40,391 bases of DNA from Anaerolineae bacterium (GTDB lineage Bacteria > Chloroflexota > Anaerolineae > Anaerolineales > UBA4823). The position numbers and the translations under genes were made by a program. The DNA lies in NCBI GenBank assembly GCA_003130835.1, contig QEXX01000008.1, forward strand, positions 1-40,391. The letters are read 5' to 3'. Of this stretch, positions 7,548 to 25,743 are shown one piece after another. How positions within the stretch are numbered: position 1 is the first letter of the stretch; every line of letters starts with the position of its first letter. The notes beneath the pieces are model-generated. The model saw only the letters and a list, made by a program, of their open reading frames with translations. It searched no databases and was not told the origin of the DNA.

Positions 7548-7832
7548 TGGGTCTATCCTAGCGATTGATTTTATTTGCAGCTTGATTTGCCATTAAGCGA
7601 ATTATACCGGTTGAGCTACCCGTCTTGTCCAAACTTTGCGCTTTCGGTTTAGGGCGAGTCGCTTTATTCCTTCGTAGGGTTGATTGAATGCTTGGTTGAG
7701 TCGTTAAGGTTCTGGTTATTGGATTGTCCAAATTTGAGAGTGTCAAAGTTTAGAAACTAGTCTTTTCCGGTTTCTGTTATTCGTTCCCGCTTCTGCCGTT
7801 AATCCTTTATAATTGAAATGGGAGAACGAGAG
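7548..7832. other. Intergenic region, no gene recognised
   Basis: 285 bases between the Thr/Pro-rich protein and the coiled-coil gene. A TATAAT at 7808-7813 is a plausible -10 element for the downstream gene, but I see no matching -35 box at the proper distance. A 62-codon minus-strand frame exists but has no family resemblance and no good ribosome binding site. No strong hairpin with a T-tract was found. Confidence 0.5.
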
Positions 7833-8618
7833 ATGACTTTCGATGTGCAAGAATATCGTCAGTTTGTTGAGTTGCTCTACAAGCACCCGGAATGGCGAGC
7901 TGAGGTACGCCAACTGGTGCTAAGTGAGGAAGTTCTCAACCTGCCTCGCATTGTGCAAGAGCTGGCTGAAGTGCAGAAGCGCACCGAGCAGCGGGTGGAA
8001 GAGCTGGCAGAGGCGCAGAAGCGCACTGAGCAGCGGGTGGAAGAGCTGGCTGAAGCGCAGAAGCGCACCGAGCAGCGGGTGGAAGAGCTGGCTGAAGCGC
8101 AGAAGCGCACCGAGCAGCGGGTGGAAGAGCTGGCTGAAGCGCAGAAGCGCACTGAGCAGCGGGTGGAAGAGCTGGCTGAAGCGCAGAAGCGCACTGCATC
8201 TCAACTGGCGCGCTTGGAAAACCGCATTGGTGTCAGCACTGAACAAGAAGCTGCTGATACGCTAGGCTATGTGCTTCGCCAGAAGGGCTATCAAATCCTG
8301 GAAGGGCCCTTCAACTTACCCCTAAATGGGGAGATTGATGTGGTTTATAAGATTGCTGATCAGGAAGGGAAGCTGTTGACAGCGGTATTAGAAGCAAAGG
8401 TGCGTTTAAGCCGCAGTGGTGTTGAAGATTGGGCACAACGAATGCGTTCGGTGGATTTTCGCCGCAAGATCGAAGAGGCGGGCTTCGCAGGCCCTTACTT
8501 GGTCTATGCGTATGGGATGCGAGCGGATCCAAGTGCCTATGAAGCAGTCAACCGCTTCGGAATTGGACTCATTACCGACCGAGGGGAGCAAATTGAGCCA
8601 CAAGGTACGCTTCCTTAA
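7833..8618 (+). CDS. Coiled-coil repeat protein with PD-(D/E)XK-like C-terminal domain
   Basis: 261 residues from the ATG at 7833, chosen over 7818 because GGGAGAACGAG lies just upstream. The N-terminal ~40 residues are followed by a coiled coil made of near-identical 14-residue units ([14 protein letters not shown], about five full copies plus a partial one). The C-terminal ~125 residues carry [11 protein letters not shown], then [10 protein letters not shown] and [10 protein letters not shown], the E...(I)D...ExK arrangement of a PD-(D/E)XK nuclease fold. The overall design matches a family often annotated as DUF3782 or 'chordopoxvirus fusion protein', abundant in Chloroflexota and cyanobacteria. 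Nuclease activity is inference; the fold may be only structural. The repeat copy number is likely to vary between strains because the DNA repeats are almost exact. Confidence 0.85.
7959..8196 (+). repeat. 42-bp in-frame tandem repeat, five full copies plus a partial sixth
   Basis: Units begin at 7959, 8001, 8043, 8085 and 8127, each 42 bp (GAGCTGGCTGAAGCGCAGAA... pattern), with a partial unit from 8169. Differences between copies are single silent or conservative changes (GCTGAAGTG/GCAGAGGCG/GCTGAAGCG; ACC/ACT). Because 42 is divisible by three, several other frames through the array are also open and give spurious ORFs on both strands. Confidence 0.95.
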
Positions 8619-8800: not shown

Positions 8801-9937
8801 TTATGGTTGAGTGGCGAGTGGCACAGAAAAGCCAAACGTCGAGCCTTCTCCTTCTTTGGAGATTACCCATACTTCTCCACCAGCAGCCTCGACAACTCGC
8901 TTGACAATGGCTAATCCCAACCCTGTCCCCTGCCGGGAACTTTTCTTGGCATTCGAAGCGCGAAAGAATTCTTGAAAAAGGTTCTTTAGATCTGCTTCTG
9001 GAATACCGATACCACTATCCCTGACTTCACCGATCAATTTCCCATCCTCGCTCTTGAGTGTCACTTCGATAAAGCCTTTTTCGGTGTATTTGATGGCATT
9101 CCCGATCAGGTTGGTCCAGACGCTGGTGAAATGATCGCGATTTCCCAAGATGATTTTTGGTCCGGGTTGAATGTGAAGGCGAAAATCCAACCCCTTTTCA
9201 AAGGCTTGAAGGCGCATTTTTTGAACTACGTCTTGTAAGATATCCTCCATGTTAATCTTATCTACGTTGCCTTCTTGGAGTTGGGTTTGAACTTTGCCTA
9301 GTTGGAGCAAGTCATTGATTAATTTCATTTGCTCTTGTGCTCGCGCAAGACATTTATCGATGATATCTTTTTGCTGCTCGGCAGAGACGTAACCATCTTG
9401 AATTAACCTTAAGTAGGTGTGAATCGCTGCGATAGGAGCTTGCAGTTCGTGGGTTACCAAGCGGATAAATTGCATTTTGGCGCGATCCAATTCTTCTAGG
9501 CGGGCTTTTTCTTCTTGTAAGCGGCGTGCTTCTTCTTCAATCCGCTGTAAACGCTTTGCCTCAAGGGAAAGACGTCTCCGCTCCAAGCCCTGTTGCACAA
9601 CCAAAAGCAAATCGTCCACCGAGAAGGGTTTGGTGAGAAAGTCGTATGCTCCTTCTTTGATGGCTCTGACGGCCATTTCAACGGTGGCGTAGCCGGTGAT
9701 AATGACGCAGACAGCTTCTGGATCGATGCGATGGATTTCCCCGATTAAATCAATCCCGCTAATTCCAGGCATCATGACATCGATCAGCACCAAATCGAAA
9801 GGCTGTTTGCGGAAAAGCTCCAAGCCTTGTTCGCCGGTTTCGGCAGTTTCAACATCATATCCTTGAGGAGTCAAGCCGCGCTTAATCCCTTCGCGGATGC
9901 CGGCCTCATCATCGATCACTAAAATTCTATCCGCCAA
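8801..9937 (-). CDS. Receiver-histidine kinase hybrid (cytosolic)
   Basis: 378 residues: an N-terminal receiver (acidic pair D9-D10, phospho-acceptor D53 in LIDVMMPG, K103 in FLTKP), a charged coiled coil (about 118-152), a HisKA domain with the phospho-acceptor in LVTHELQAP (H163), and a HATPase domain (GNAIKYTEKG, DSGIGIPEAD, GTGLGLAIVKR). No membrane segment. Start is a TTG at 9937 with GGAGGAGGG just upstream, overlapping the end of the preceding kinase gene by 11 bases. Such receiver-first kinases usually receive a phosphoryl group from an upstream kinase, here presumably the Cache/HAMP kinase, and pass the signal on. Last gene of the long minus-strand run; its TAA stop overlaps the ATTA flank of MITE copy A. 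Confidence 0.92.
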   Translation of the reverse strand: MADRILVIDDEAGIREGIKRGLTPQGYDVETAETGEQGLELFRKQPFDLVLIDVMMPGISGIDLIGEIHRIDPEAVCVIITGYATVEMAVRAIKEGAYDFLTKPFSVDDLLLVVQQGLERRRLSLEAKRLQRIEEEARRLQEEKARLEELDRAKMQFIRLVTHELQAPIAAIHTYLRLIQDGYVSAEQQKDIIDKCLARAQEQMKLINDLLQLGKVQTQLQEGNVDKINMEDILQDVVQKMRLQAFEKGLDFRLHIQPGPKIILGNRDHFTSVWTNLIGNAIKYTEKGFIEVTLKSEDGKLIGEVRDSGIGIPEADLKNLFQEFFRASNAKKSSRQGTGLGLAIVKRVVEAAGGEVWVISKEGEGSTFGFSVPLATQP

Positions 9938-11942
9938 TCAATCCCTCCTCCCCCCGTTGTGCCTGATTTAGGTTTAAGGTTATGGGCAAGCTAATGGTAA
10001 AGGTCGTGCCGCATCCCACCTCGCTTTTGACAGAAATTTGTCCCCGATGCATCTTAACGATCCCATAAATAATGGCTAAACCCAAGCCGGTTCCCTTCCC
10101 CACGGGCTTTGTAGTAAAGAAGGGAGTGAAGAGCTTATTCAAATGTTCTGGGGGGATACCTTTACCTTCATCTTGCACCTCAATTGTGATCATGCCAGGC
10201 GGTTTTGCGGCGGTGCGGATGGTAATCTTGCCTCCATTTGGCATGGCATCGGCTGCATTATGAATCAAGTTGAGCAGCACTTCGCGTAATTGAGCTGCAT
10301 CCAATTCCGCTAAGGGGAGCGATTCATCAAGTTCAAGGTTAAAGCGAATATTGTCGTAGCGAGCATGTCGTTTTTCGATGGCAATCCATTCTTGAATCAA
10401 ATCGTTCAATGCAGTTGGCTGGGCGTTGACTTGGGTTTGGCGAGCAAAATTCAATAAACCGGAGACAATTTGTTTACAGCGTAAGGTTTCGTTGATGATC
10501 GTTTCCAAATCGTCTTGATGTTGAGGATTTAGCGTTGCTTCGCGACGTAAAATGTCTGCATAAAGCAAGATGGTAGCAAGCGGATTGTTCAATTCATGCG
10601 CCACACCGGCTGCAAGTTGACCAAGGGAGGCTAATTTCTCGGATTGAATTAGCTTGTCTTGTGTGTTTTGCAGGGTATCTAACATAGTGTTAAAGGATCG
10701 TGCCACCAGTCCTACTTCTCCGCCAACGGCGACCGGGGCGCGAGCAGATAAATCGCCCGCCGAAACCCTCTGGCTGGTCTGAACAAGTTTGCGTAGTTCC
10801 CCCAAAGGACGGGTAATATAGCCGGAAACTGGGATTGCCAAGCCAAAGGTGACGATGATGCTGACAAAGGCAATGACCGCTACTTGTCGATTGAATGCAG
10901 TCAGCAACCGCAAGAAACGTTCCTGATTGGCGCCTACGTATAGAATTCCAACGATCTTCCCCTGATGGTCATAAATTGGATCATAGCGGGTGATGTAGTT
11001 TTGGTTCACGACAAAAGCTGGTCCAACAAAAGGTTCACCCTTGTATAACACCGTTTCTCCCACTTCAGCAGATAGGCGAGTGCCAATGGCACGTTGACCT
11101 TGTTCGGTTAGGACATTCGTAGAAACTCGTTGATCGCCGAGGAAGATCGTTACTGTGTCGACACCAGCTACGGTTTTGATCCGATCCACCAAAGTGAAGT
11201 CGTTATTGATTAAATGAAAAACGACAACTGCACCAAGTACCTGCCCTTTTTGCTGCAGAGGCGCAACCGCTACTAACGCCAAACCGGCACTCCCTTCGCG
11301 TGGGTCGTAGGGTTGTGGAGCTGCGCGGGGGGTGTCCAGGAGAGGGATGCGGGCTTTTTCGGCTAAATGAACGCTCAGCAACGCTTCTTCGGGAAGGATT
11401 TCGGTCCCAGAGCACAGCTCGCGCTCTTGAATGGCTTTCTGGACAATGGGGAGAGCAAAGGAATAACGCAGGTCTCTGTCTAGGACACTCAGGTTGCCTG
11501 CTTCCAGAAGGTAACCTGCTTTGACAATTCCACTCAAATCGACGATGACAACCGTGTGATTACCTTGATCGAAAAGACCTCTCATCTGGCTGGAGAGGTA
11601 AGCTTGGACATCGGATGCTGCCAGCTCTTCATGGGTTGAATCATCTTGAACAAATGCAAGCCAAGTTGCATCCTCAGAAAGACGCCTGGTTGTTTCTTCT
11701 ATCCATTTCAAATGATCGGCGTAGAAGGCTTGTGCCAAGCGCATATCGCGTGAGACACGGTCTGTCATGGAAGTGACCAAGTATTGGTCAATGGTTCTTG
11801 AGATCGCCCACGCGCCTACGCCAATCGAGAGCGCAGCTACCAACGAAAAAGCAACCACTAGCGTGAATTGAAATGGGGCAGGGAACAGTTGCTTGACAAA
11901 GTGGGTGAACCAATTCGAGCGCGTTTTGGATAGTTCGGTCAC
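9927..11942 (-). CDS. Cache/HAMP sensor histidine kinase
   Basis: About 671 residues. A first membrane segment near the N-terminus (FTLVVAFSLVAALSIGVGAW) is followed by a ~300-residue extracytoplasmic sensor of the double-Cache type (TVVIVDLSGIVKAGYLLEAG; later DPIYDHQGKIVGILYVG), a second membrane segment (VAVIAFVSIIVTFGLAIPV), a HAMP domain, HisKA with LAAGVAHELNNPLATI and a HATPase (NLIHNAADAMPNGG, DEGKGIPPE, GTGLGLAIIYG). The sequence around the His is NtrB-like. I prefer the GTG at 11942, which has AAGGA 8 bases upstream, over the ATG at 11987 that would overlap the ACT-protein gene. Cache domains generally sense small external molecules such as carboxylates; formate would fit the operon but this is speculation. 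Confidence 0.9.
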   Translation of the reverse strand: MTELSKTRSNWFTHFVKQLFPAPFQFTLVVAFSLVAALSIGVGAWAISRTIDQYLVTSMTDRVSRDMRLAQAFYADHLKWIEETTRRLSEDATWLAFVQDDSTHEELAASDVQAYLSSQMRGLFDQGNHTVVIVDLSGIVKAGYLLEAGNLSVLDRDLRYSFALPIVQKAIQERELCSGTEILPEEALLSVHLAEKARIPLLDTPRAAPQPYDPREGSAGLALVAVAPLQQKGQVLGAVVVFHLINNDFTLVDRIKTVAGVDTVTIFLGDQRVSTNVLTEQGQRAIGTRLSAEVGETVLYKGEPFVGPAFVVNQNYITRYDPIYDHQGKIVGILYVGANQERFLRLLTAFNRQVAVIAFVSIIVTFGLAIPVSGYITRPLGELRKLVQTSQRVSAGDLSARAPVAVGGEVGLVARSFNTMLDTLQNTQDKLIQSEKLASLGQLAAGVAHELNNPLATILLYADILRREATLNPQHQDDLETIINETLRCKQIVSGLLNFARQTQVNAQPTALNDLIQEWIAIEKRHARYDNIRFNLELDESLPLAELDAAQLREVLLNLIHNAADAMPNGGKITIRTAAKPPGMITIEVQDEGKGIPPEHLNKLFTPFFTTKPVGKGTGLGLAIIYGIVKMHRGQISVKSEVGCGTTFTISLPITLNLNQAQRGEEGLIGG

Positions 11943-11964
11943 AAAAAATTCCTTCGGCTGAACC

Positions 11965-12441
11965 TTACGGCAACAGGAAATAGGCATCTAAAGCGGTACG
12001 TGCTTTAGATGCCTCGCTTTCCGGAATCAGAGCCGAGCATGTTGAAACGGAGGTCGAGATGGCAAAGATTGGAATGGATTGTTCATTCAGGCATTTCAGG
12101 AAATTCCCTGCAATGCCGGGCCTCAGACGGAAATCCGGCCCGAAAATGCCAAGGCTGGCAACCTGTAATCTCAGTTTTGCGGAACCGATCCCAATTTGTT
12201 TTTGAAGCCGCAGCAACAGGTCAAAAGCGACTTGGGTATCGTGGCGAGCAACGGCTAAGGTTAATTGTCCCTGACCGCAACGATCGGAGAGCTGTACAAG
12301 GAATTGGATGTTGACCTTGTGGAGGCCGAATTCGGTCAATATGCTCGCCTCGGCATCCATGTGGGGGTGAGGTAGCCCCTGAATGCATAGCATGGTCAGG
12401 TTTTCATGGTAAAGGATGCCACCAATCTTGATCTTTTCCAA
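11965..12441 (-). CDS. Stand-alone ACT-domain protein (aspartokinase regulatory-region-like)
   Basis: 158 residues from a TTG start six bases after the stop of the receiver gene, with AGGA shortly upstream. The sequence resembles the tandem ACT regulatory region of aspartate kinase: LCIQGLPHPHMDAEASILTE at the start of one ACT unit and FAISTSVSTCSALIPESEAS at the core of the second. No kinase catalytic domain precedes it, so it is not an aspartokinase. ACT domains bind small ligands, usually amino acids, and control partner proteins. Its place between a receiver and a membrane kinase inside a hydrogenase/formate dehydrogenase operon suggests a ligand-sensing or adaptor role there. Similarity is recognised by eye and moderately sure. 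Confidence 0.7.
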   Translation of the reverse strand: MEKIKIGGILYHENLTMLCIQGLPHPHMDAEASILTEFGLHKVNIQFLVQLSDRCGQGQLTLAVARHDTQVAFDLLLRLQKQIGIGSAKLRLQVASLGIFGPDFRLRPGIAGNFLKCLNEQSIPIFAISTSVSTCSALIPESEASKARTALDAYFLLP

Positions 12442-12447
12442 TGGATC

Positions 12448-12825
12448 CTATTGTTTGAGTAGTTTATTGACCTGACGGATTAACTCGGCGGGCTCAACCG
12501 GTTTGCTCATAAAAGCATTGATGTGAATATATTCATCGGTTGGGAACAGAGCAGCATAATCGGTGTTAGCAATCGAAGTAACCATGATGATTGGGATTTG
12601 GTTGATTTCTTCGTCCTCATGGATCCGTTGGGTGATGGTTAAGCCATCCAACACGGTATCCATAATGACGTCCAAAATGACTAAATCCGGTTTTTCCGCT
12701 TTCATTTTCTCATAGCACTCGTTGCCGCTGGCAGCACTGAGAGTTGTATGGCCGGCTTTTTCCAGTACCATGCGAGTCGCTTCGACAAAATCTGGATCAT
12801 CATCAACGATTAAGATTCTTGCCAT
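12448..12825 (-). CDS. Variant single-domain response regulator (third of three in the operon)
   Basis: 125 residues, receiver only. Acidic triplet D8-D10, phospho-acceptor D52, switch Thr in IMVTSI and Lys in MSKPVEP. Departures from the norm: the loop after the Asp reads DVIMDTVLDG, one residue longer than usual and without the conserved proline, and 24 instead of 21 residues separate the switch Thr from the Lys. The receivers at 14632 and 22782 share both features. It starts 3 bases after the NuoF-like gene (GGGAG ribosome site overlapping that gene's end), so it is co-expressed with the diaphorase subunit. No output domain; it probably acts by protein-protein contact. Confidence 0.9.
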   Translation of the reverse strand: MARILIVDDDPDFVEATRMVLEKAGHTTLSAASGNECYEKMKAEKPDLVILDVIMDTVLDGLTITQRIHEDEEINQIPIIMVTSIANTDYAALFPTDEYIHINAFMSKPVEPAELIRQVNKLLKQ

Positions 12826-12828
12826 ATT

Positions 12829-14121
12829 TCACTCCCGCAGAATAGGTTCGTGAGTCGAATTCCCCACCAGACACTTTTTGTTGGTGAGATGGTAATCATA
12901 CTCTTCCCGAAATCGCTCAATGGTAGAGCGGGCGGGGTTGACAAGCGCTGAGCCCATTGGGCAGAAAGTGAGCCCATCGATTTCTCGTGCGAGTTCGAGG
13001 GCTAAGTCGAGATCGGCTGGTTTGCCTTTGCCGCGCTCGATTCTTTCTAGAATTTCGTATAGCCTGCGTGAGCCTAACCGACATGGGACGCATCGGCCGC
13101 AGGATTCGTGAGCAAAGAACTTTGTCAGTCGGCGGGCAACTTCGACCATACAAGTTGTTTCATCCATCACGATCATGGCTCCGGTACCTAATTGACTGCC
13201 AACCGCTGCCAAGGTTTCAAAAGCCATGGGGACATTGACGTGCTCGGCAGTCAAAACGGGGGTAGAAGCGCCACCGGGAATCACAGCCTTTAACTTCTTG
13301 CCGTTTCGGATTCCGCCGGCGTGTTCATAGATGATTTCTCCGATTGTTGTCCCGAGGGGTAACTCGTAATTGCCGGGTCGATTGACATGGCCGCTGACTG
13401 AGAAAATTTTGGGGCCTTTGCTCTCCGCTGTTCCGATGCTGGCAAACCATTCCGCTCCACGGAGAATGATGTGAGGAATACATGCTAGGGTTTCTATGTT
13501 ATGCACTAGAGTTGGATAACCGAAAAGACCTACTTGGGCTGGGTAGGGCGGCTTAAGCCGTGGGTTGCCTGGTTTGCCTTCCAGTGATTCCAGCATGGCG
13601 GTTTCTTCTCCGCAGATATAAGCCCCTGCTCCACGATGGACAGACATATCTAAGTCGAATCCAGAACCGAGAATGTTTTTTCCCAAAAAACCATGTTCGT
13701 AGGCGTCCGCAATCGCTTTGATCCACCGTTTGACGCCTAAAAAGAATTCGCCGCGGATGTAGACATAGGCGCGATGAGCTCCGACTGCATAACTGGCGAT
13801 AATCACTCCCTCAATTACTTGGTGTGGATCGCGTTCGACGATTTCGCGATCTTTGAACGTGCCCGGTTCGCCCTCGTCCGTATTAACCGCCACAATCTTG
13901 GGTACATTAGGGTCTTTGGGCATAAAACCCCATTTCACTCCAGCCGGGAAGCCAGCACCTCCTCGGCCGCGTAATCCGGAACGCTTGACAATGTCAATTA
14001 ATTCATCGGGGGATTTGGTTAGTGCCAATCGCACAGCCTCATAGCCGCCGTTGGCAAGGTAGGTGTAGATTTTTTCTGAGTTTGGGCGATGGATATTTCG
14101 GGTTAAGACCGGTTCGAACAT
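12829..14121 (-). CDS. nuoF: NuoF-like NADH-binding flavoprotein subunit (diaphorase, set 1)
   Basis: 430 residues, the normal length of NuoF / the 51-kDa subunit of complex I. Seen: the glycine-rich FMN/NADH region GRGGAGFPAGVKWGFMP (about residues 50-66), CGEETAMLESLEGKPGNPR, the SLBB-type region, and the [4Fe-4S] motif ESCGRCVPCRLGSRR near residue 340 with the fourth Cys in LTFCPMGSA. No extra ferredoxin domain at the C-terminus, unlike the second NuoF-like protein at 18413. It oxidises or reduces NAD(H) with FMN and passes electrons to Fe-S clusters. Paired with the NuoE-like gene 30 bases upstream. No membrane subunits of complex I are present, so this is a soluble diaphorase for formate dehydrogenase or hydrogenase rather than a respiratory complex. 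Confidence 0.92.
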   Translation of the reverse strand: MFEPVLTRNIHRPNSEKIYTYLANGGYEAVRLALTKSPDELIDIVKRSGLRGRGGAGFPAGVKWGFMPKDPNVPKIVAVNTDEGEPGTFKDREIVERDPHQVIEGVIIASYAVGAHRAYVYIRGEFFLGVKRWIKAIADAYEHGFLGKNILGSGFDLDMSVHRGAGAYICGEETAMLESLEGKPGNPRLKPPYPAQVGLFGYPTLVHNIETLACIPHIILRGAEWFASIGTAESKGPKIFSVSGHVNRPGNYELPLGTTIGEIIYEHAGGIRNGKKLKAVIPGGASTPVLTAEHVNVPMAFETLAAVGSQLGTGAMIVMDETTCMVEVARRLTKFFAHESCGRCVPCRLGSRRLYEILERIERGKGKPADLDLALELAREIDGLTFCPMGSALVNPARSTIERFREEYDYHLTNKKCLVGNSTHEPILRE

Positions 14122-14151: not shown

Positions 14152-14628
14152 TTAGTTTTCTTGTTGCAGTCGTTCTAGCAACTGATCGATAGCGGAGAAG
14201 GTCATGTTTTCATAGAGTTCATCATTGACCTTAACAGCCGGCGCCGTTCCACAAGCGGCTAGGCATTGAACGACTTCAAGGGTAAATTTGCCATCGGGGG
14301 TAGTCTCACCCGGCTGAATACCTAATTTTTCCGCTATATAGTTGATGATTGGCTCAGCACCTCCCACCAAATAACAAGACAACCCTTCGCAAACCTGAAT
14401 GCGGTATTTTCCTTGCGGTTGCAGCTTAAACATGGTATAGAAACTGGCTGTGCTTTTCACCTGTCCGACCGTCAGATTCAGGCGTTCGGCAACCCGTTGA
14501 ATCGCCTCTTCACTCAACCAGCCAAACTGTTCTTGAGCAATGTACAGGGCAGCTAATAACATGGCTCGCTTACGGCCATCTTGTAATGGATTGTCCGTCT
14601 GGGTCGTGATTGGTGAAGTTGCTACCAT
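14152..14628 (-). CDS. nuoE: NuoE-like [2Fe-2S] thioredoxin-fold subunit (set 1)
   Basis: 158 residues: an N-terminal helical bundle (LYIAQEQFGWLSEEAIQRVA) and a C-terminal thioredoxin-like ferredoxin with the four cluster Cys in VCEGLSC and QCLAACGTAP. This is the 24-kDa subunit fold of complex I and of NAD-linked hydrogenases and formate dehydrogenases; it carries a [2Fe-2S] cluster next to the FMN subunit. Translated right after the receiver at 14632 (3-base gap; AGGAAG ribosome site inside the end of that gene) and 30 bases before nuoF. A second NuoE homologue is encoded at 20349. Confidence 0.92.
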   Translation of the reverse strand: MVATSPITTQTDNPLQDGRKRAMLLAALYIAQEQFGWLSEEAIQRVAERLNLTVGQVKSTASFYTMFKLQPQGKYRIQVCEGLSCYLVGGAEPIINYIAEKLGIQPGETTPDGKFTLEVVQCLAACGTAPAVKVNDELYENMTFSAIDQLLERLQQEN

Positions 14629-14631
14629 AGG

Positions 14632-15021
14632 TTACTTCCTTTGTTCTAAAACGCTCCCAATGGTTTGAATCAGGGTTTGTGGCGAAAAGGGTTTGGGCAA
14701 CCAGCCAGCTGCATAATGAACCTGAGCGGGTTGAATTTGGTCGGCATAGGGTGTATCGGCAATTGATGTGACAAAAATAATGGGCAAATGACGCAGGATT
14801 GGGTCATGATGCAAGCGATCGCCAAACTCTAAGCCTTCATCTACTCGGTTCATCACCAAGTCCAAAAGGATCAAGTCGGGCCAATCGCTCTCAATGCGTT
14901 CCATCGCTTGGGTGGTATCGGTAGCCGTAATGACTTCATAACCAGCCGGCTCTAGAATCGTGCGGCTGATTTCACAGAAATCTGGGTCGTCATCAACAAT
15001 CAGAATACGTGCAATGCTCAT
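14632..15021 (-). CDS. Variant single-domain response regulator (second of three)
   Basis: 129 residues, receiver only, from the ATG at 15021; the frame is open further upstream but the extension would overlap the rubrerythrin gene and is not receiver-like. Acidic triplet D10-D12, phospho-acceptor D54 (LLDLVMNRVDEG), switch Thr in FVTSIA and Lys in WLPKPF. Shares with the receivers at 12448 and 22782 the one-residue-longer, proline-less loop after the Asp and the 24-residue Thr-to-Lys distance. Closely coupled to the NuoE gene downstream (3 bases). Confidence 0.88.
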   Translation of the reverse strand: MSIARILIVDDDPDFCEISRTILEPAGYEVITATDTTQAMERIESDWPDLILLDLVMNRVDEGLEFGDRLHHDPILRHLPIIFVTSIADTPYADQIQPAQVHYAAGWLPKPFSPQTLIQTIGSVLEQRK

Positions 15022-15055
15022 GGCAACCAACGAAGCGTTGCATCCAACTGCACCC

Positions 15056-15544
15056 TTAGCCGCCCCACGGCATCTGGGCATATTGTTCGAAGATGGTGTC
15101 GTGCATATTCTTAAAGAGTGCTTCGTGAGTTCGTTCCCATTCGGCCAAGGAGCGTAAAACCTGTTGGGCTGACCCTTCAGCCTTGCTGGCAGCCATCTCG
15201 TAAAACTCGGCAAAATCTCGTTCGATTAAGTAAGCCATGCGCAGCACCGGGAGATCGGCCACCATTGCTTGGGCAACACTCTGTTCGACTTGCTCGCTTT
15301 CCGCCCGTTGAGCAAAGAAGCTGCTCGGACGTAAGCTCTCTTCCATCACCACCACGGATTGCCCTTCGTTCAAAGATGCCAGTTGTTTTTCGATGAAGAA
15401 GATATGTTTTTGTTCTTCTTGAGCAAGCACTTTAAAGGCTCCCTTTGCTGCTGCATGATGAAGTCGCTCGGCATTTTCTTCAAAAAAGCGTTTCCCTTCG
15501 ATTTCGCGTTGTAAGGCATATTCATAGATTTTGCGGATATCCAT
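15056..15544 (-). CDS. Rubrerythrin-like diiron (ferritin-fold) protein
   Basis: 162 residues forming a four-helix bundle with the diiron ligand pattern of rubrerythrins: EIEGKRFFEENAE in helix 1, EEQKH in helix 2, ERDFAEFYEMA in helix 3 and EWERTHEAL in helix 4. The C-terminal rubredoxin domain of classical rubrerythrin is missing, so electrons would come from a separate donor. Such proteins reduce peroxide in anaerobes. Good ribosome site (GAGGAG). Its place 37 bases after the formate dehydrogenase gene suggests protection of oxygen-sensitive Fe-S enzymes made from the same transcript. Confidence 0.85.
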   Translation of the reverse strand: MDIRKIYEYALQREIEGKRFFEENAERLHHAAAKGAFKVLAQEEQKHIFFIEKQLASLNEGQSVVVMEESLRPSSFFAQRAESEQVEQSVAQAMVADLPVLRMAYLIERDFAEFYEMAASKAEGSAQQVLRSLAEWERTHEALFKNMHDTIFEQYAQMPWGG

Positions 15545-15581: not shown

Positions 15582-18368
15582 CTATTCCACCGCCTCAACT
15601 TTAACGGCGCAAACCTTATATTCGGGGATCTTGGCGATCGGATCCAAGGCTGCATGGGTCAAGACGTTTGCGGAAGCTTCGGGAAAATGGAAATTGGCAT
15701 AGACCATGCCGGGTAGCACCCGATCGGTGATCCAAGCCTCAGCCTCGATGCTGCCCCGTCGCGAGGTAACCCGCACGCGTCGATGTCCATTAAGCCCCAA
15801 TCGTTGGGCGTCTTCGGGGTTGATCTCAACCAATGGTTTGGGATAGATTTCCAACAAACCTTGCGCACGGCGGCTCAATTCACCTCCATGCCAGTGATAT
15901 AAAACCCGTCCGGTGGACAAAACCATGGGATATTCTGTATCGGGCAATTCAGCTGGAGGAATATGGTCAACTGCAGCGAACTTTCCTAACCCTCGCGCAA
16001 ACTTGCCCACGTGCAGAATCGGCGTGCCCGGATGGTGTTCATCTTTGACCGGCCATTGGAAGGTTTCCCCGCGCTCTAAACGCTCGTAGCGCACGCCAGC
16101 ATAGCTCGGCGCTAGAGCGTTTATTTCATCCATAATGTCTTTTGGATGGCGATAATCCCAACGAGCGTAAGGGGCTTGTAAATCAATCGTTCTGCCCGAT
16201 GTGCTTGAGGAAGTTGCCAAAAGGCGGTTGGCGACCTCACAGAGAATTTGCCAATCGGGTTGTGCCTCACCCAGCGGTTGCAGAGCTTGGCGCACGAGCT
16301 GGATGCGCCGCTCGGTGTTGGTAAAGGTGCCGGTCTTTTCGGCGAAACTGACGCCCGGCAACAAGACATCTGCATACGGAGCGGTTTCTGTATAAAAGAT
16401 ATCTTGTAAGACGACGAACTCACAGGCTTCGAGGCATTCGCGGACGTGATTTGTGTCGGGATCGCTCATCATGGGGTCTTCTGCCATAATATATAGGGCT
16501 TTGATCTTGCCCTCTTTTGCCGCAGGGATCATTTCGGTAACCGTCATGCCGATTTTGGTTGACATCGGTGCGCCCCAAGCTTGCGCAAATTTGTGAGCGG
16601 CTTCCTCGCTGGTCACCGGTTGGTAGGCTGGGTAAACATTAGGGAGCCCGCCCATATCACAAGCGCCCTGCACATTGTTTTGACCGCGCAGAGGATTGAC
16701 CCCGCCCCCGGGGATTCCCATGTTGCCTAAGAGCATTTGCAGGTTCGCCAGCGAGAACACGTTATAAACCCCGGTGGTATGTTGGGTAATTCCCATTGCC
16801 CAAATCACGGCCATGGGCTTGTTTTGGCCCATAAGCTGAGCAGCCTCTAAGAGCAGTTCTTGCGGCACGCCGGTGATCTCGCTCACCCTTTCCGGAGGGT
16901 ATTGTTCGACCACGGCTTTGAATTCCTCAAAGCCTTCGGTGCGCTCCTCGATGAAGGCTTTGTCCTCCCAGCCGTTTTTCAGGATAATATGCATCAGACC
17001 GTTCAGTAAAGCGATATCTGTACCGGGTTTATGTTGCAAATGAAGCGTCGCAAAATCCACTAATGGGATTTGACGCGGGTCTGCCACAATCAAAATGGCG
17101 TCTCTCTGCTTGACCGCTTGACGAATCTTCATCCCGATGACCGGATGTTGTTCGGTGGTATTCGAGCCGATGACGAAAAAGGCTTTTGCCTGTTGAGTCA
17201 CATCTTCGATAGAGTTCGACATGGCGCCGCTACCGAAAGAGATTGCTAGTCCGGCTACCGTGCTAGAGTGACATAAGCGAGCGCAGTGATCGATGTTGTT
17301 GGTTCCGATGATCTGGCGCGCTAATTTGTTCATCAAGTAGTTTTCTTCGTTGGTGCATTTTGCCGAGGTCAACAAACCGACCGAATCACTGCCAAATTTA
17401 TCCCGTGTTTCAAGCAGTTTGCGAGCAACAATATCCAACGCGGTATCCCAATCTACTTCCACCCATTCGCCGCGCCCTTTTCCTTCGCGTTTCCCCCCTT
17501 CTAACAGATATTTTCGCAGGCGCGGCTTAAGCAAACGATCTTCATGGTGGACGAAGTCATTTCCAAAGCGACCCTTGACACAGGTGAAACCTTGATTGAC
17601 TGGGGCATTTTCCACCCCGGTCACATTGACAATGCGATTGTTGCGCACTTGTAGCTCAATTTGACACCCCACTCCACAGTAAGTGCAAACCGTTTGAACG
17701 CTTTTTAGCTGATATGGACGCCCTTTGCCGATTGCCATCTTTGGCCAGAGCGCGCCGGTCGGGCAGACTTCCACACAACTGCCGCAAAATTCGCAAGGGC
17801 TATCCTGCATCGTGCTATCTGCCCCAAAGCCGATGTAGGCATTGAAGCCGCGATAGAAGACGCTGATGGCTTCAACCCCGTTGATATAGGCGCAAGCCCG
17901 CACGCATCTACGGCATAAAATGCATTTGTTGCGGTCAACAACAATAAACGGATTGCTGGTATCGATTGGATAATGGTGCTTTTCCCCTTGATAGCGATCC
18001 CCGGTCACACCGTATTCATAGGCTAAATCTTGTAGGAGACAGTTGCCGGTCGCCTCGCAGGTCATACAATCTAATGGATGATCGGAGATAAGCAATTCTA
18101 GGGAAAACTTGCGCGCTTCGATCACTTTGGGGGAGTGGGTATGAATCACCAGCCCCTCGGAAACCGGGAAGGTACAAGCTGGTTGGAGGGTTCTTTGTCG
18201 CTCTATCTCTACGAGACAAATTCGGCATGCGCCTTCAGGGGGCAGCGCCGGATGATCGCATAATACTGGGATATGAATGCCATGTTCACGAGCCGCCTGT
18301 AAAATCGTTTGACCATAGCGGGCTTGAATTTTTTGCCCATCGATGGTAATCGTTGCTTTATCGATCAT
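15582..18368 (-). CDS. fdhA: Formate dehydrogenase catalytic subunit, NAD-linked type, Cys-containing
   Basis: 928 residues. Order of sites: a NuoG-like [2Fe-2S] domain (C37, C48, C51, C65), a His-ligated [4Fe-4S] site (H97, C101, C104, C110), a two-cluster ferredoxin (C149/152/155/159 and C192/195/198/202), then the molybdopterin oxidoreductase part with a [4Fe-4S] site (C228, C231, C235, C263) and the active-site loop HCARLCHSSTVAG, where C366 would bind Mo or W in place of the selenocysteine found in many anaerobes and H367 follows. The C-terminal ~120 residues form the molydopterin dinucleotide-binding domain (LSTGRVLYHWHGGELSRRA). It interconverts formate and CO2. The neighbouring NuoE/NuoF-like genes make it an NAD-dependent, perhaps bifurcating, cytosolic enzyme. 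Other molybdopterin enzymes share this layout, but the CHxxTVAG loop favours formate dehydrogenase. Ribosome site AGGAAG. Confidence 0.92.
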   Translation of the reverse strand: MIDKATITIDGQKIQARYGQTILQAAREHGIHIPVLCDHPALPPEGACRICLVEIERQRTLQPACTFPVSEGLVIHTHSPKVIEARKFSLELLISDHPLDCMTCEATGNCLLQDLAYEYGVTGDRYQGEKHHYPIDTSNPFIVVDRNKCILCRRCVRACAYINGVEAISVFYRGFNAYIGFGADSTMQDSPCEFCGSCVEVCPTGALWPKMAIGKGRPYQLKSVQTVCTYCGVGCQIELQVRNNRIVNVTGVENAPVNQGFTCVKGRFGNDFVHHEDRLLKPRLRKYLLEGGKREGKGRGEWVEVDWDTALDIVARKLLETRDKFGSDSVGLLTSAKCTNEENYLMNKLARQIIGTNNIDHCARLCHSSTVAGLAISFGSGAMSNSIEDVTQQAKAFFVIGSNTTEQHPVIGMKIRQAVKQRDAILIVADPRQIPLVDFATLHLQHKPGTDIALLNGLMHIILKNGWEDKAFIEERTEGFEEFKAVVEQYPPERVSEITGVPQELLLEAAQLMGQNKPMAVIWAMGITQHTTGVYNVFSLANLQMLLGNMGIPGGGVNPLRGQNNVQGACDMGGLPNVYPAYQPVTSEEAAHKFAQAWGAPMSTKIGMTVTEMIPAAKEGKIKALYIMAEDPMMSDPDTNHVRECLEACEFVVLQDIFYTETAPYADVLLPGVSFAEKTGTFTNTERRIQLVRQALQPLGEAQPDWQILCEVANRLLATSSSTSGRTIDLQAPYARWDYRHPKDIMDEINALAPSYAGVRYERLERGETFQWPVKDEHHPGTPILHVGKFARGLGKFAAVDHIPPAELPDTEYPMVLSTGRVLYHWHGGELSRRAQGLLEIYPKPLVEINPEDAQRLGLNGHRRVRVTSRRGSIEAEAWITDRVLPGMVYANFHFPEASANVLTHAALDPIAKIPEYKVCAVKVEAVE

Positions 18369-18412: not shown

Positions 18413-19939
18413 TTACTCAATCATGATTGCGTCAAACTTGCATACTTCAATACAAATGCCACACCGTTCGCAAATGTTTGGGTCAATATAGTGGACTTGA
18501 CGTTTTTCGCCGCTGATTGCCCCGGCTGGGCAGTTTCGTTTACATACCATGCAACCGGTGCAGTTCTCTTCAATGACCTTATAGGTGATTAAGCCTCGGC
18601 AAACTTTGGCAGGACATTTTTTGTCGTAGATGTGTGCCTCATATTCTGAACGGAAGAAGCGCAAGGAAGCCATCACCGGCCCGGGGGTCAATTGTCCTAA
18701 GGCACACAGGGAGGCTTCTTTCATGTTCCTTGAAATGTATTCAATCTCATCCAAATCTTCGGGCTTCCCCTCTCCATTCCCAATGCGGGTCAACACTTCC
18801 AACAAACGGCGACCACCGATGCGGCAAGGGACGCATTTACCACACGATTCGGCTGAAGCAAAGGTCAAAAAATATTTAGCAAACTCTACCATGCACGTAT
18901 CTTCGTCAACGACGATCATACCGCCCGAACCCATGGTGGCGCCCGCTTGCACCAAAGAGTCAAAATCTACGGGTGTGTCCAACGCTTCTGCAGGAAGACA
19001 TCCACCGAGTGGCCCGCCTGTTTGAACGGCTTTAAATTGTTTGCCTCCGGGTATACCGCCACCAATGTCATAGATGATCTCGCGCAGGGTGGTGCCCATG
19101 GGCACTTCGATTAAGCCGGTATGGTTGATCTTGCCGGTCAAGGCAAAGATGGCTGTTCCCGGTGAGCTTTCAGTGCCAATGCTTGCAAACCATTCGGCAC
19201 CGTTGAGAATAATTTGCGGCGTCATGGCATAACTCTTTACATTGTTGACATTAGAAGGCTTATTCCACAAACCGGAAACAGCCGGGAAAGGGGGACGTGG
19301 GCGCGGTTCCCCTCGCCGCCCTTCGATAGAAGCCATCAGAGCTGTCTCCTCACCGCAGACAAACGCTCCAGCACCTTCTTTGATGTATAGATCAAAGCTA
19401 AAATTTGTGCCAAAAATGTTCTTTCCTAAAAATCCAAACTCTCTTGCTTGTTGAATGGCAATCTTCAAATGCGCAATTGCTAAGGGATATTCTGCTCTAC
19501 AGTAAATGTAGCCTTCCTCCGAGCCAATTGCATAGGCAGCAATCGCCATCCCTTCAATGACACTATGAGGGTCGCCTTCCAAAATCGAGCGATCCATGAA
19601 CGCGCCCGGATCCCCCTCATCGGCGTTGCAGATCACATATTTGGGTTTTGCCGGCGAGCGACGGGCAAATTCCCATTTGATGCCGGTCACAAAACCTGCC
19701 CCTCCCCGCCCGCGCAGCTTGGAATCCTTCATGACCCCAATGACCTCATCGGGGGTCATCTCAGTGACTGCTTTTGCAAGAGCTAAATAACCGCCGCGTT
19801 CGATATATTCTTCAATTCGTTCCGGGTTGATAATCCCACAATTGCGTAAAGCGATGCGAACTTGTTTTCGATAAAACGGCAGGTCTGTGTACGATGGGAT
19901 TGTCAGTGGATTCGGCTGAGGTTGCACAGGGCTTTCCAT
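18413..19939 (-). CDS. NuoF-like flavoprotein subunit with C-terminal 2[4Fe-4S] domain (set 2, HndC/HylB-like)
   Basis: 508 residues. NuoF core: GRGGAGFVTGIKWEFAR (about residue 75), FVCGEETALMASIEGRRGEP, and ESCGKCVPCRIGGRR with a later ASLCALGQL Cys. A ferredoxin-like extension of about 70 residues at the end has two [4Fe-4S] motifs, CTGCMVCKRNC and CERCGICIEVC. This extended form is typical of the beta subunits of electron-bifurcating [FeFe] hydrogenases and of the HylB subunit of bifurcating formate dehydrogenase; their usual N-terminal thioredoxin-like domain is encoded here as the separate gene at 19958. Ferredoxin as a second electron carrier is thus likely but not proven. AAGGAG ribosome site; 44 bases ahead of fdhA. 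Confidence 0.92.
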   Translation of the reverse strand: MESPVQPQPNPLTIPSYTDLPFYRKQVRIALRNCGIINPERIEEYIERGGYLALAKAVTEMTPDEVIGVMKDSKLRGRGGAGFVTGIKWEFARRSPAKPKYVICNADEGDPGAFMDRSILEGDPHSVIEGMAIAAYAIGSEEGYIYCRAEYPLAIAHLKIAIQQAREFGFLGKNIFGTNFSFDLYIKEGAGAFVCGEETALMASIEGRRGEPRPRPPFPAVSGLWNKPSNVNNVKSYAMTPQIILNGAEWFASIGTESSPGTAIFALTGKINHTGLIEVPMGTTLREIIYDIGGGIPGGKQFKAVQTGGPLGGCLPAEALDTPVDFDSLVQAGATMGSGGMIVVDEDTCMVEFAKYFLTFASAESCGKCVPCRIGGRRLLEVLTRIGNGEGKPEDLDEIEYISRNMKEASLCALGQLTPGPVMASLRFFRSEYEAHIYDKKCPAKVCRGLITYKVIEENCTGCMVCKRNCPAGAISGEKRQVHYIDPNICERCGICIEVCKFDAIMIE

Positions 19940-23690: not shown

Positions 23691-24974
23691 TTAGCGTTGA
23701 ATTTTCAGGACATGCACGCTGCACGAAATGCAAGGATCATAAGCACGCACTAACATCTCCAAGTCCAATTGCATTTCGGGTTCGGGTTTGTGCATCACTT
23801 TTGGTACCCAAGCGCGCATGTCATGCTCGAGGTTATTAATGTTCTGATTGGTCGGGATAATGCAGTTGGCAGCGGTGATACGACCGTCTTCGCCGATGGC
23901 GTAATGGTGGATCAATAAGCCGCGCGGCACCTCGGCGACCCCGACGCCCTCGCCTGGCATGTGTTTGATCGGGGCTGGTTCTTCGGGTTGGACACCGCGG
24001 TTCAAGAGTTCCTCAATGATGCGGATTGAGTCTTCGGTGCTATGCACGATCTCGACTACTTGCGCTGCAGAATTGAGGAACGTATTGGTCACTTTGGGTT
24101 TCATCCCTAATACGGCTGCAGCTTCTTTGGCTTTCGGGTGTAACAGGTTGTAATTATTATTAAACCGTGCCAAGGCTCCAACCATGAGCGACTCGCGTTT
24201 GTTGCGTGTGAATTTAGCAGTTGAGTGCGGCACCATAAATTCATTGGTGACTTCTTTGTAGCGCTCAGGAGGCACCCGCACGCCATCGCTGGTAACAATA
24301 TCCCCGTCGATAAAAGCGTATTCATCGGGCTTGCTGAGGGAGACGTACTCGGTGTCTCGCTCGAATTCTGGCCAAGGTAACTTCGCAAACAGTTCAACGG
24401 TTGCTTCAACATCTTTGCGCGAGTCGATCAAGCGTTGGCGCATGGCTTCCAATTCCGACATCTTGGGGAAGTGGGTGAAGCCACCTACCGTCATTGCAAT
24501 TGGATGCGTATGACGCCCGGTGACCATGGCGCACAGATCGCCGGCTAGCTTCTTCATGCGCAGGGCGCGCAACACCACCTCCGGATGGCTATTCACCAAC
24601 GGGATCACGCTACCAACACCCAAAAAATCAGGCGCAACCAGCATGTATACATGCAGGACATGACTATCTAAAATCTCACCATGAAAAGTTAACTTGCGCA
24701 AAAGCCAGCTTTGCTCGCTTAACTCCACTCCCAAGGCCTTTTCAGATGCCCGCAGAGAGGCTGTTGCGTGTCCTGTGGCGCAGATGCCACAAATGCGGCT
24801 GGTGATGTGGGAAGCCTCGCTATATGGACGTCCGCGCAACATCGCCTCGAAAAAGCGCGGCGTTTCAACCACGTCGAAGCGACAGGTCTTGAGTTTGCCG
24901 TTTTCAACCTCGACAACGATATTGCCGTGTCCTTCTACCCTGGTGACGTGATGGACATCAATTCGTTTATTCAT
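23691..24974 (-). CDS. hydA: [NiFe] hydrogenase large subunit, group 3b (alpha)
   Basis: 427 residues from the ATG at 24974, preceded by AAAGGG and four bases after the small-subunit stop; the open frame upstream to 25055 overlaps that gene and is not family-like. The nickel site is intact: RICGICATGH (C62, C65) and DPCISCSVH (C415, C418, H421), followed by the tail VLKIQR that the maturation protease should remove. Also VTRVEGHGNIVVEV near the start, typical of all large subunits. Gene order beta-gamma-delta-alpha equals the hydBGDA operon of archaeal sulfhydrogenases, so it belongs to the cytosolic, reversible, NADP(H)-linked group 3b enzymes. Confidence 0.95.
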   Translation of the reverse strand: MNKRIDVHHVTRVEGHGNIVVEVENGKLKTCRFDVVETPRFFEAMLRGRPYSEASHITSRICGICATGHATASLRASEKALGVELSEQSWLLRKLTFHGEILDSHVLHVYMLVAPDFLGVGSVIPLVNSHPEVVLRALRMKKLAGDLCAMVTGRHTHPIAMTVGGFTHFPKMSELEAMRQRLIDSRKDVEATVELFAKLPWPEFERDTEYVSLSKPDEYAFIDGDIVTSDGVRVPPERYKEVTNEFMVPHSTAKFTRNKRESLMVGALARFNNNYNLLHPKAKEAAAVLGMKPKVTNTFLNSAAQVVEIVHSTEDSIRIIEELLNRGVQPEEPAPIKHMPGEGVGVAEVPRGLLIHHYAIGEDGRITAANCIIPTNQNINNLEHDMRAWVPKVMHKPEPEMQLDLEMLVRAYDPCISCSVHVLKIQR

Positions 24975-24978
24975 AGAA

Positions 24979-25743
24979 CTACCCTTTCTGCAATAGTTTC
25001 TCACGTACCTGGTAAGTGGTGAACATCGTATAAATCGCCGTGATGTCTTCCACACTCAAACCAGCTTCTTCCAGTACGTCTTTCATCGAATCTTGATTGG
25101 GATTGGTGATGAAACCACGGCAGGCTTCACAGGACGAGCCGTAGGTTGGACAAATCGCTCCACAGCCGGCGCGGGTGACCGGTCCGAGACAAACTTTCCC
25201 TTTCGTGTACATACAGATGTTCTCTTTGAGGCGGCATTCGACGCACACGGGATAATCAGGGATGGGAGGCTTTTTCCCTAATAGGAGCGCTTTAACAACC
25301 GCAATGAATTCGTTGCGGTCGATGGGGCAACCAGGAATGGCGAAATCGACCGGAATCACCGCCTCGATTGGGCGAGCATCGTAGGTCTCATACCATTCCC
25401 ATTTGTCCCCATATACGTACTTGCGCACGTCTTCAAGGGGATGCAATGCTTTGAGGGCATTAACACCAGCCAAATGTGCGCAAGCTCCGAGGGCGATGAC
25501 AATGCTTGCCTGTTCGCGAATGGCTTTTAAGCGGGCTTCATCGCTTTGGCGGGTGCACGAGCCTTCGATAAAGGCAATTTGGTAATCTTCCCCTTTTTCG
25601 CTCATCGCCTCGCGAAACTGCACAATTTCGACCGCATTGAGTAATTCTGGGTGGTCCTGAAGTGAGTCCACCACTGTCAGTTGACACCCTTCGCAACTGG
25701 TGAAGTCAAAGAAAGCGATTTTAGGTTTGCCGTTGGCGCTCAT
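24979..25743 (-). CDS. hydD: [NiFe] hydrogenase small subunit, group 3b (delta)
   Basis: 254 residues from the ATG at 25743, which forms an ATGA overlap with the stop of the gamma-subunit gene and has GGAGGAGG upstream. Proximal cluster motif CEGCQ (C17, C20), ALGACAH and PGCPID, then a Cys-rich C-terminal part (CVECRLKENICMYTKGKVC and CGAICPTYGSSCEACRG) for two more clusters. No twin-arginine signal peptide, so the enzyme stays in the cytoplasm. It carries electrons from the nickel site of the large subunit to the flavoprotein gamma subunit. Confidence 0.95.
   Translation of the reverse strand: MSANGKPKIAFFDFTSCEGCQLTVVDSLQDHPELLNAVEIVQFREAMSEKGEDYQIAFIEGSCTRQSDEARLKAIREQASIVIALGACAHLAGVNALKALHPLEDVRKYVYGDKWEWYETYDARPIEAVIPVDFAIPGCPIDRNEFIAVVKALLLGKKPPIPDYPVCVECRLKENICMYTKGKVCLGPVTRAGCGAICPTYGSSCEACRGFITNPNQDSMKDVLEEAGLSVEDITAIYTMFTTYQVREKLLQKG

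Follow-up and report, generated by a model that had tools for sequence, protein, structure and literature searches.

A stand-alone aspartokinase-type double-ACT protein encoded between a receiver and a histidine kinase in a formate dehydrogenase/hydrogenase operon of an Anaerolineae bacterium

The stretch of DNA considered in the current analysis, referred to here as the window, comprises 40,391 nucleotides of contig QEXX01000008.1 from the Anaerolineae assembly GCA_003130835.1. Genes for formate dehydrogenase, [NiFe] hydrogenase and NuoEF-like diaphorase subunits occur in it together with a block of two-component signalling genes, and within this block lies the gene of a small protein with two ACT domains (Table 1). 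The receiver encoded upstream of this gene scores 79.7 bits with Response_reg of Pfam. It had been described as a variant receiver in the preliminary description of the locus, but it keeps D9, D10, D52, T83 and K108, which are invariant in the 13 rows of the receiver alignment (A3), and it looks phosphorylatable. Its best match in NCBIfam is the DVU0259-type model, with 66.6 bits as against a cut-off of 160. As in two-component modules with single-domain receivers, a receiver and a kinase are encoded side by side with the gene of interest; unlike in those modules, the ACT protein is placed between the two.

Table 1. Features of the window in the region of the ACT gene
Feature	Position	Strand	Remark
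Receiver-histidine kinase hybrid	8801..9937	-	end of signalling block
Cache/HAMP histidine kinase	9927..11942	-	ORF listed as 9927-11987; GTG 11942 preferred
Stand-alone double-ACT protein, aspartokinase beta-subunit type	11965..12441	-	158 aa, TTG start
ACT2 region, residues 93-158	11968..12165	-	conserved GPDFR.RPGIAG and STSVSTCS
ACT1 region, approximately residues 9-92	12166..12417	-	aspartokinase D-x-P-G effector loop lost
Single-domain response regulator (receiver)	12448..12825	-	phosphorylation residues present; 6 bases upstream of ACT gene
NuoF-like diaphorase subunit	12829..14121	-	NCBIfam
NuoE-like subunit	14152..14628	-	NCBIfam
Formate dehydrogenase alpha, NuoG-like N-terminus	15582..18368	-	NCBIfam
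Second NuoF-like subunit with ferredoxin tail	18413..19939	-	NCBIfam
[NiFe] hydrogenase large subunit, sulfhydrogenase type	23691..25055	-	NCBIfam

Two further features of the window are recorded here. The region 14632-15544, between the NuoE and formate dehydrogenase genes, is occupied by a gene resembling rubrerythrin and by a further single-domain receiver; the ORF of this receiver, as listed, overlaps the rubrerythrin-like gene unless a later start is taken. An ORF at 7818-8618 has a coiled-coil unit in tandem repeats (14 protein letters, not shown), and this repetition gives rise, on either strand, to further long frames that are probably spurious.

The frame of the ACT gene is unbroken in all six genomes of the genus of the window, and pN is lower than pS for both ACT1 and ACT2 in each of the 15 pairs of these genomes, with synonymous sites near saturation. 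Judged from this conservation, which rules out a chance ORF, the gene is genuine and subject to purifying selection. ACT2 evolves more slowly than ACT1 in all 15 pairs (dN 0.13-0.26 as against 0.25-0.54). The identity to the window protein within the genus is 55-72%, which is below that of NuoF (91-95%) and of the receiver (92-95%). The spacing of the genes given in the preliminary description is borne out: bases 12442-12447 separate the ACT gene from the receiver, and the distance of 22 bases to the kinase is correct given a kinase start at GTG 11942; if the kinase began at ATG 11987, the two genes would overlap. The GTG start is favoured because exactly 22 bases are also left between the ACT gene and the kinase in two relatives of the genus (L003 and L005).

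Pfam assigns ACT_9 (34.7 bits) and ACT_7 (33.2 bits, the cut-off being 27 for each) to residues 95-155, corresponding to ACT2, and gives the N-terminal half only a weak ACT match (E-value 0.22). Aspartokinase models of NCBIfam align to residues 1-156 with scores far under their whole-enzyme cut-offs, as is expected because the kinase domain is absent. A sequence search of the PDB relates residues 1-155 to a 164-residue aspartokinase chain (5yei_D, E-value 5e-8). The AF2 model, computed from an input alignment of 8 sequences, has a mean pLDDT of 92.9, and its top structural match in the PDB is chain B of the aspartokinase 5yei (TM 0.89/0.90); all the 50 top rows of the structure search are aspartokinases. 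The predicted fold and the family model identify the N-terminal half, which Pfam scores too low to assign, as a further ACT domain, and the protein has two ACT domains in the arrangement of aspartokinase. The proposal that it resembles the regulatory tail of aspartokinase without the catalytic domain is therefore upheld by the agreement of Pfam, NCBIfam, the PDB sequence match and the fold, including the ACT_7 and ACT_9 profiles suggested at the time as a check.

The ACT domains of aspartokinases are textbook amino-acid sensors. The aspartokinase beta subunits of Pseudomonas aeruginosa (5yei) and Corynebacterium glutamicum (2dtj) are similar to the window protein over its whole length, sharing the two ACT domains and a predicted fold with TM values of 0.86-0.89 on the query. 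Unlike these subunits, the window gene has no kinase domain upstream, the preceding gene being the receiver rather than an aspartokinase catalytic gene, and it has another genomic setting. GcvR is a stand-alone regulator with two ACT domains of ACT_6 type that lacks catalysis and is presumed to act by protein contact. The window protein is likewise a double-ACT protein free of catalysis; a regulator of GcvR type is rejected, as ACT_6 of Pfam has no match to the window protein up to an E-value of 1.

Residues of the window protein were mapped by alignment onto the aspartokinase of C. glutamicum, in which V132 corresponds to E382 and S131 to S381. E382A, S381F, T361A and A279T are listed in a review among the variants that have been tested for feedback inhibition (PMC10464499). 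Of 31 aspartokinases, 90% have E or D at the position of E382, which is occupied by I, V, M or L in most rows of stand-alone proteins. In the window the acidic residue of the STSE motif is absent and the serine is retained. Most stand-alone members have P102, D103, F104, R105 and I/V132-S133 where the 31 aspartokinases have T/A/V, G, M/I/L, L/Q and E/D-I. The aspartokinase loop GxG(M/I/L) thus reads GPDFR in most of them, and GPHLR in six deltaproteobacterial ones, and the motif of the second site reads STS[IV]S. Within the genus of the window, GPDFR does not vary, nor does most of the ACT2 signature.

ACT1 presents a different picture. Its D-x-P-G loop, which is retained by most of the 71 other stand-alone rows, with D in 73%, P in 90% and G in 100%, is gone in the genus of the window, and the position of N124, occupied by N in all 31 aspartokinases and all the 71 other stand-alone rows, is P in all six genus members. 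The putative ACT2 pocket is conserved but altered. Since the second ACT site has changed (GPDFR, STS[IV]S), an effector of aspartokinase is not expected, and lysine or threonine is unlikely as the ligand. The simplest reading of these residues is a single working site, ACT2, whose ligand is neither lysine nor threonine.

The protein had been called an orphan, and is instead one of a family. A search of 41 genomes identified a member in all six genomes of the genus and in none of the 35 genomes from other genera of the same family and order. When named genomes were scanned, seven loci came to light, of which six are deltaproteobacterial and one belongs to an Anaerolineales assembly. The search of the class, with a profile built from 12 members and a sample drawn evenly from a larger group, revealed at least 72 places in at least 66 of 396 genomes with E-values of 1e-15 or better, these being lower bounds as at most nine first-look candidates were scored per genome. 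The class members lie mostly in frames of 115-243 codons, with one of 354. A search of the whole phylum gave a match in 198 of 400 genomes. Among the matches listed from outside the class, nearly all are frames of more than 300 codons scoring 76-98 bits, like whole aspartokinases, along with a few short frames with lower scores and one clear stand-alone copy (G441, 168 codons, 153.6 bits), which has no labelled redox neighbour. A tree was built from 83 rows of stand-alone proteins and 31 of aspartokinases. In it all the aspartokinases lie on one side of a branch with support of 100/100 and the window protein falls outside their clade; the root is arbitrary, so that the tree shows the separation and not its direction. 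The 31 rows omit the aspartokinase of the window genome and three others, with profile matches of less than 130 residues. The genus of the window has a long branch, with 1.67 changes per column.

The genes adjoining these family members were labelled from tblastn matches of at least 50 bits, the queries being the proteins of the window and a small number of representatives, and many of the labels rest on tblastn alone. The five relatives from the genus have the same gene order as the window wherever the contig reaches. A receiver is directly upstream, on the same strand and within 400 bases, in 37 of the 72 places of the class, the window included, and NuoF is within 1,100 bases upstream in 26 of these 37. 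The gene is therefore conserved beside redox operons, within the genus by its order and in the class by the NuoF-receiver pair upstream in 26/72 places, a point on which the preliminary description had made its proposal depend. Several single-domain receivers are lined up beside the ACT or NuoE-NuoF genes at L054-L056, L060, L067, L072, L075 and L077. In the 35 places that have no receiver directly upstream the settings are varied. The ACT gene is directly upstream of AtpD in nine of the 72 places (L089, L106, L083, L088, L090, L095, L096, L098 and L107); the operons at L089 and L106 continue with beta, epsilon and then a, b, alpha and gamma genes, with the c subunit also in L089, an order which we take to be that of the Na+-type N-ATPases and not of the standard F-ATPase. 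Other copies are found beside NuoN (L058, L117), directly after formate dehydrogenase alpha (L053) or near formate dehydrogenase (L059). A match to NuoE/F, formate dehydrogenase, hydrogenase, NuoN or FocA occurs within 10 kb in at least 42 of the 72 places, many contigs being short, and several places have no recognised redox neighbour. In five of the six deltaproteobacterial copies (L008, L010, L011, L012, L013) a gene for a PaaK-like CoA ligase precedes within 34 bases, which is a setting quite unlike the others, the sixth copy (L009) being at a contig start. None of 36 aspartokinase loci used as a control had any labelled neighbour; most of these loci belong to other classes, and their flanks are short, extending to about 1.5 kb.

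The association was also approached from the receiver. The receiver model was derived from the 13 ACT-adjacent receivers of alignment A3, and hence ranks ACT-linked receivers high by construction; the cut of 190 bits was set after viewing the list, in the gap from 191.8 to 180.2 bits. Among 396 genomes of the class it identified 31 places at or above this cut (NuoF-type receivers), and the ACT gene is within 1 kb in 26 of them, in one case (G058) with another receiver between. A member is present in 29 of these 31 genomes as against 66 of the 396, three of the 29 (G042, G070, G232) having the ACT gene away from the receiver. A Fisher test of the association gave p 2e-23, with relatedness ignored. 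In G151 the contig ends after the receiver and no member was found in the genome. No member was found in the genome of G403, of the same order as the window genome. Its locus L190 is syntenic with the window, comprising formate dehydrogenase, NuoE, NuoF, receiver, Cache/HAMP kinase and hybrid kinase with NuoF 82% and the receiver 67% identical, but the interval from receiver to kinase (about 9465-9585) is without an ACT gene. Because this syntenic operon lacks it, the ACT gene is a frequent but optional part of the module, and the ACT-less operon serves as a natural comparison.

The location between the receiver and the Cache/HAMP kinase had been taken to suggest a metabolic input into the local signalling path or a direct control of the enzymes, both of which are plausible. 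The link is with the receiver and NuoEF and not with the Cache/HAMP kinase. A same-strand kinase follows within 400 bases in 27 of the 37 receiver-linked places, directly so in the window, as might be expected if the protein were an accessory input to the histidine kinase that gates its autophosphorylation or phosphatase activity. However, 26 of these 27 kinases best match a six-TM type (all the three that were scanned match 6TM_PilS of Pfam) and only that of the window is of Cache/HAMP type; besides, four of the 37 places have only an opposite-strand hybrid kinase and six have none nearby, two of these six at contig ends. This exchange of kinase type weakens the case for a kinase-specific partner, and we consider an input to the kinase quite unlikely. 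As the kinase type is exchanged while the receiver and NuoF stay, we infer that the receiver and NuoEF, the constant companions, are the preferred partners.

A direct allosteric subunit of an enzyme complex (NuoEF diaphorase, formate dehydrogenase, complex I or ATPase), for which the adjacent receiver would be a matter of operon packaging, would account for the receiver-less copies near formate dehydrogenase, beside NuoN and before AtpD; yet the largest group, the 37 places, has a receiver and not an enzyme subunit immediately upstream, and this possibility is held to be rather doubtful. The loss of the ACT1 effector loop, the long branch, the identity below that of the operon neighbours and the existence of an operon without the gene could also reflect a fast-evolving remnant that is a decaying passenger with no present role in the genus. 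Such decay is improbable in view of the intact gene in every genus genome, the excess of pS over pN in both domains and the invariance there of GPDFR and the greater part of the ACT2 signature. The protein shares fold and sequence family with aspartokinase, and might be taken for a regulatory subunit that the cell makes separately for its aspartokinase, but the window genome (G000) encodes a complete aspartokinase on another contig (C45, model positions 3-439 of 442), the tree sets the 31 aspartokinases apart and the acidic residue at the E382 position is missing. These observations rule out an aspartokinase fragment and leave regulation in trans of that enzyme a most improbable role.

The reading we favour, tentatively, is that an aspartokinase-type double-ACT regulator has moved out of amino-acid biosynthesis and is now the small-molecule-responsive part of a signalling module of NADH-linked formate dehydrogenase and hydrogenase. 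The protein would most likely be an effector-binding adaptor working by contact on the adjacent receiver/NuoEF module. It probably dimerises as the aspartokinase beta subunit does, the dimer being assumed from aspartokinase, and an effector other than lysine or threonine would bind the pocket centred on ACT2 (GPDFR and STSVSTCS). Binding would alter how the ACT protein touches the single-domain receiver encoded beside it, the NuoEF diaphorase or both, and electron flow or phospho-signalling would thereby track the level of the metabolite. The reading draws on the fold and family, on the adjacency and co-occurrence with receiver and NuoF as against the aspartokinase control loci, on the exchange of kinase type, on the changed site residues and on the slower evolution of ACT2. 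Against it stand the module of G403 that exists without the gene, the three genomes with the ACT gene apart from the receiver, the 35 of 72 places with no receiver directly upstream, the lack of a match in the 35 genomes from other genera of the family and order, and a conservation in the genus below that of NuoF and the receiver. The identity, fold, family and recurrent adjacency of the protein and the loss of its first site in this genus are observed, and the dimer, the ligand class, the partner and the direction of control are what we infer.

Among the open-access papers covered by the search, we recognised no description of proteins like these adjoining genes for formate dehydrogenase, hydrogenase or N-ATPase, nor of an ACT protein between a receiver and a kinase. 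The recurrence of the family beside genes of energy metabolism across the class points to an as yet undescribed switch by which a small molecule would control energy metabolism. The broader idea, put forward with more reserve, is that the stand-alone aspartokinase-type ACT proteins may form a class-wide metabolite switch, in which one family with one changed ACT2 ligand serves NADH-linked formate dehydrogenase/hydrogenase modules by way of single-domain receivers, and also serves complex I and Na+-type (N-) ATPase operons, the ACT1 site having been lost in some lineages. A separate ACT family in redox and ATPase operons would tie the metabolite state to the metabolism of H2, formate and ATP in bacteria that are known here mostly from metagenome assemblies, and it narrows the hunt for the ligand to a limited number of genes and a single, specific pocket.
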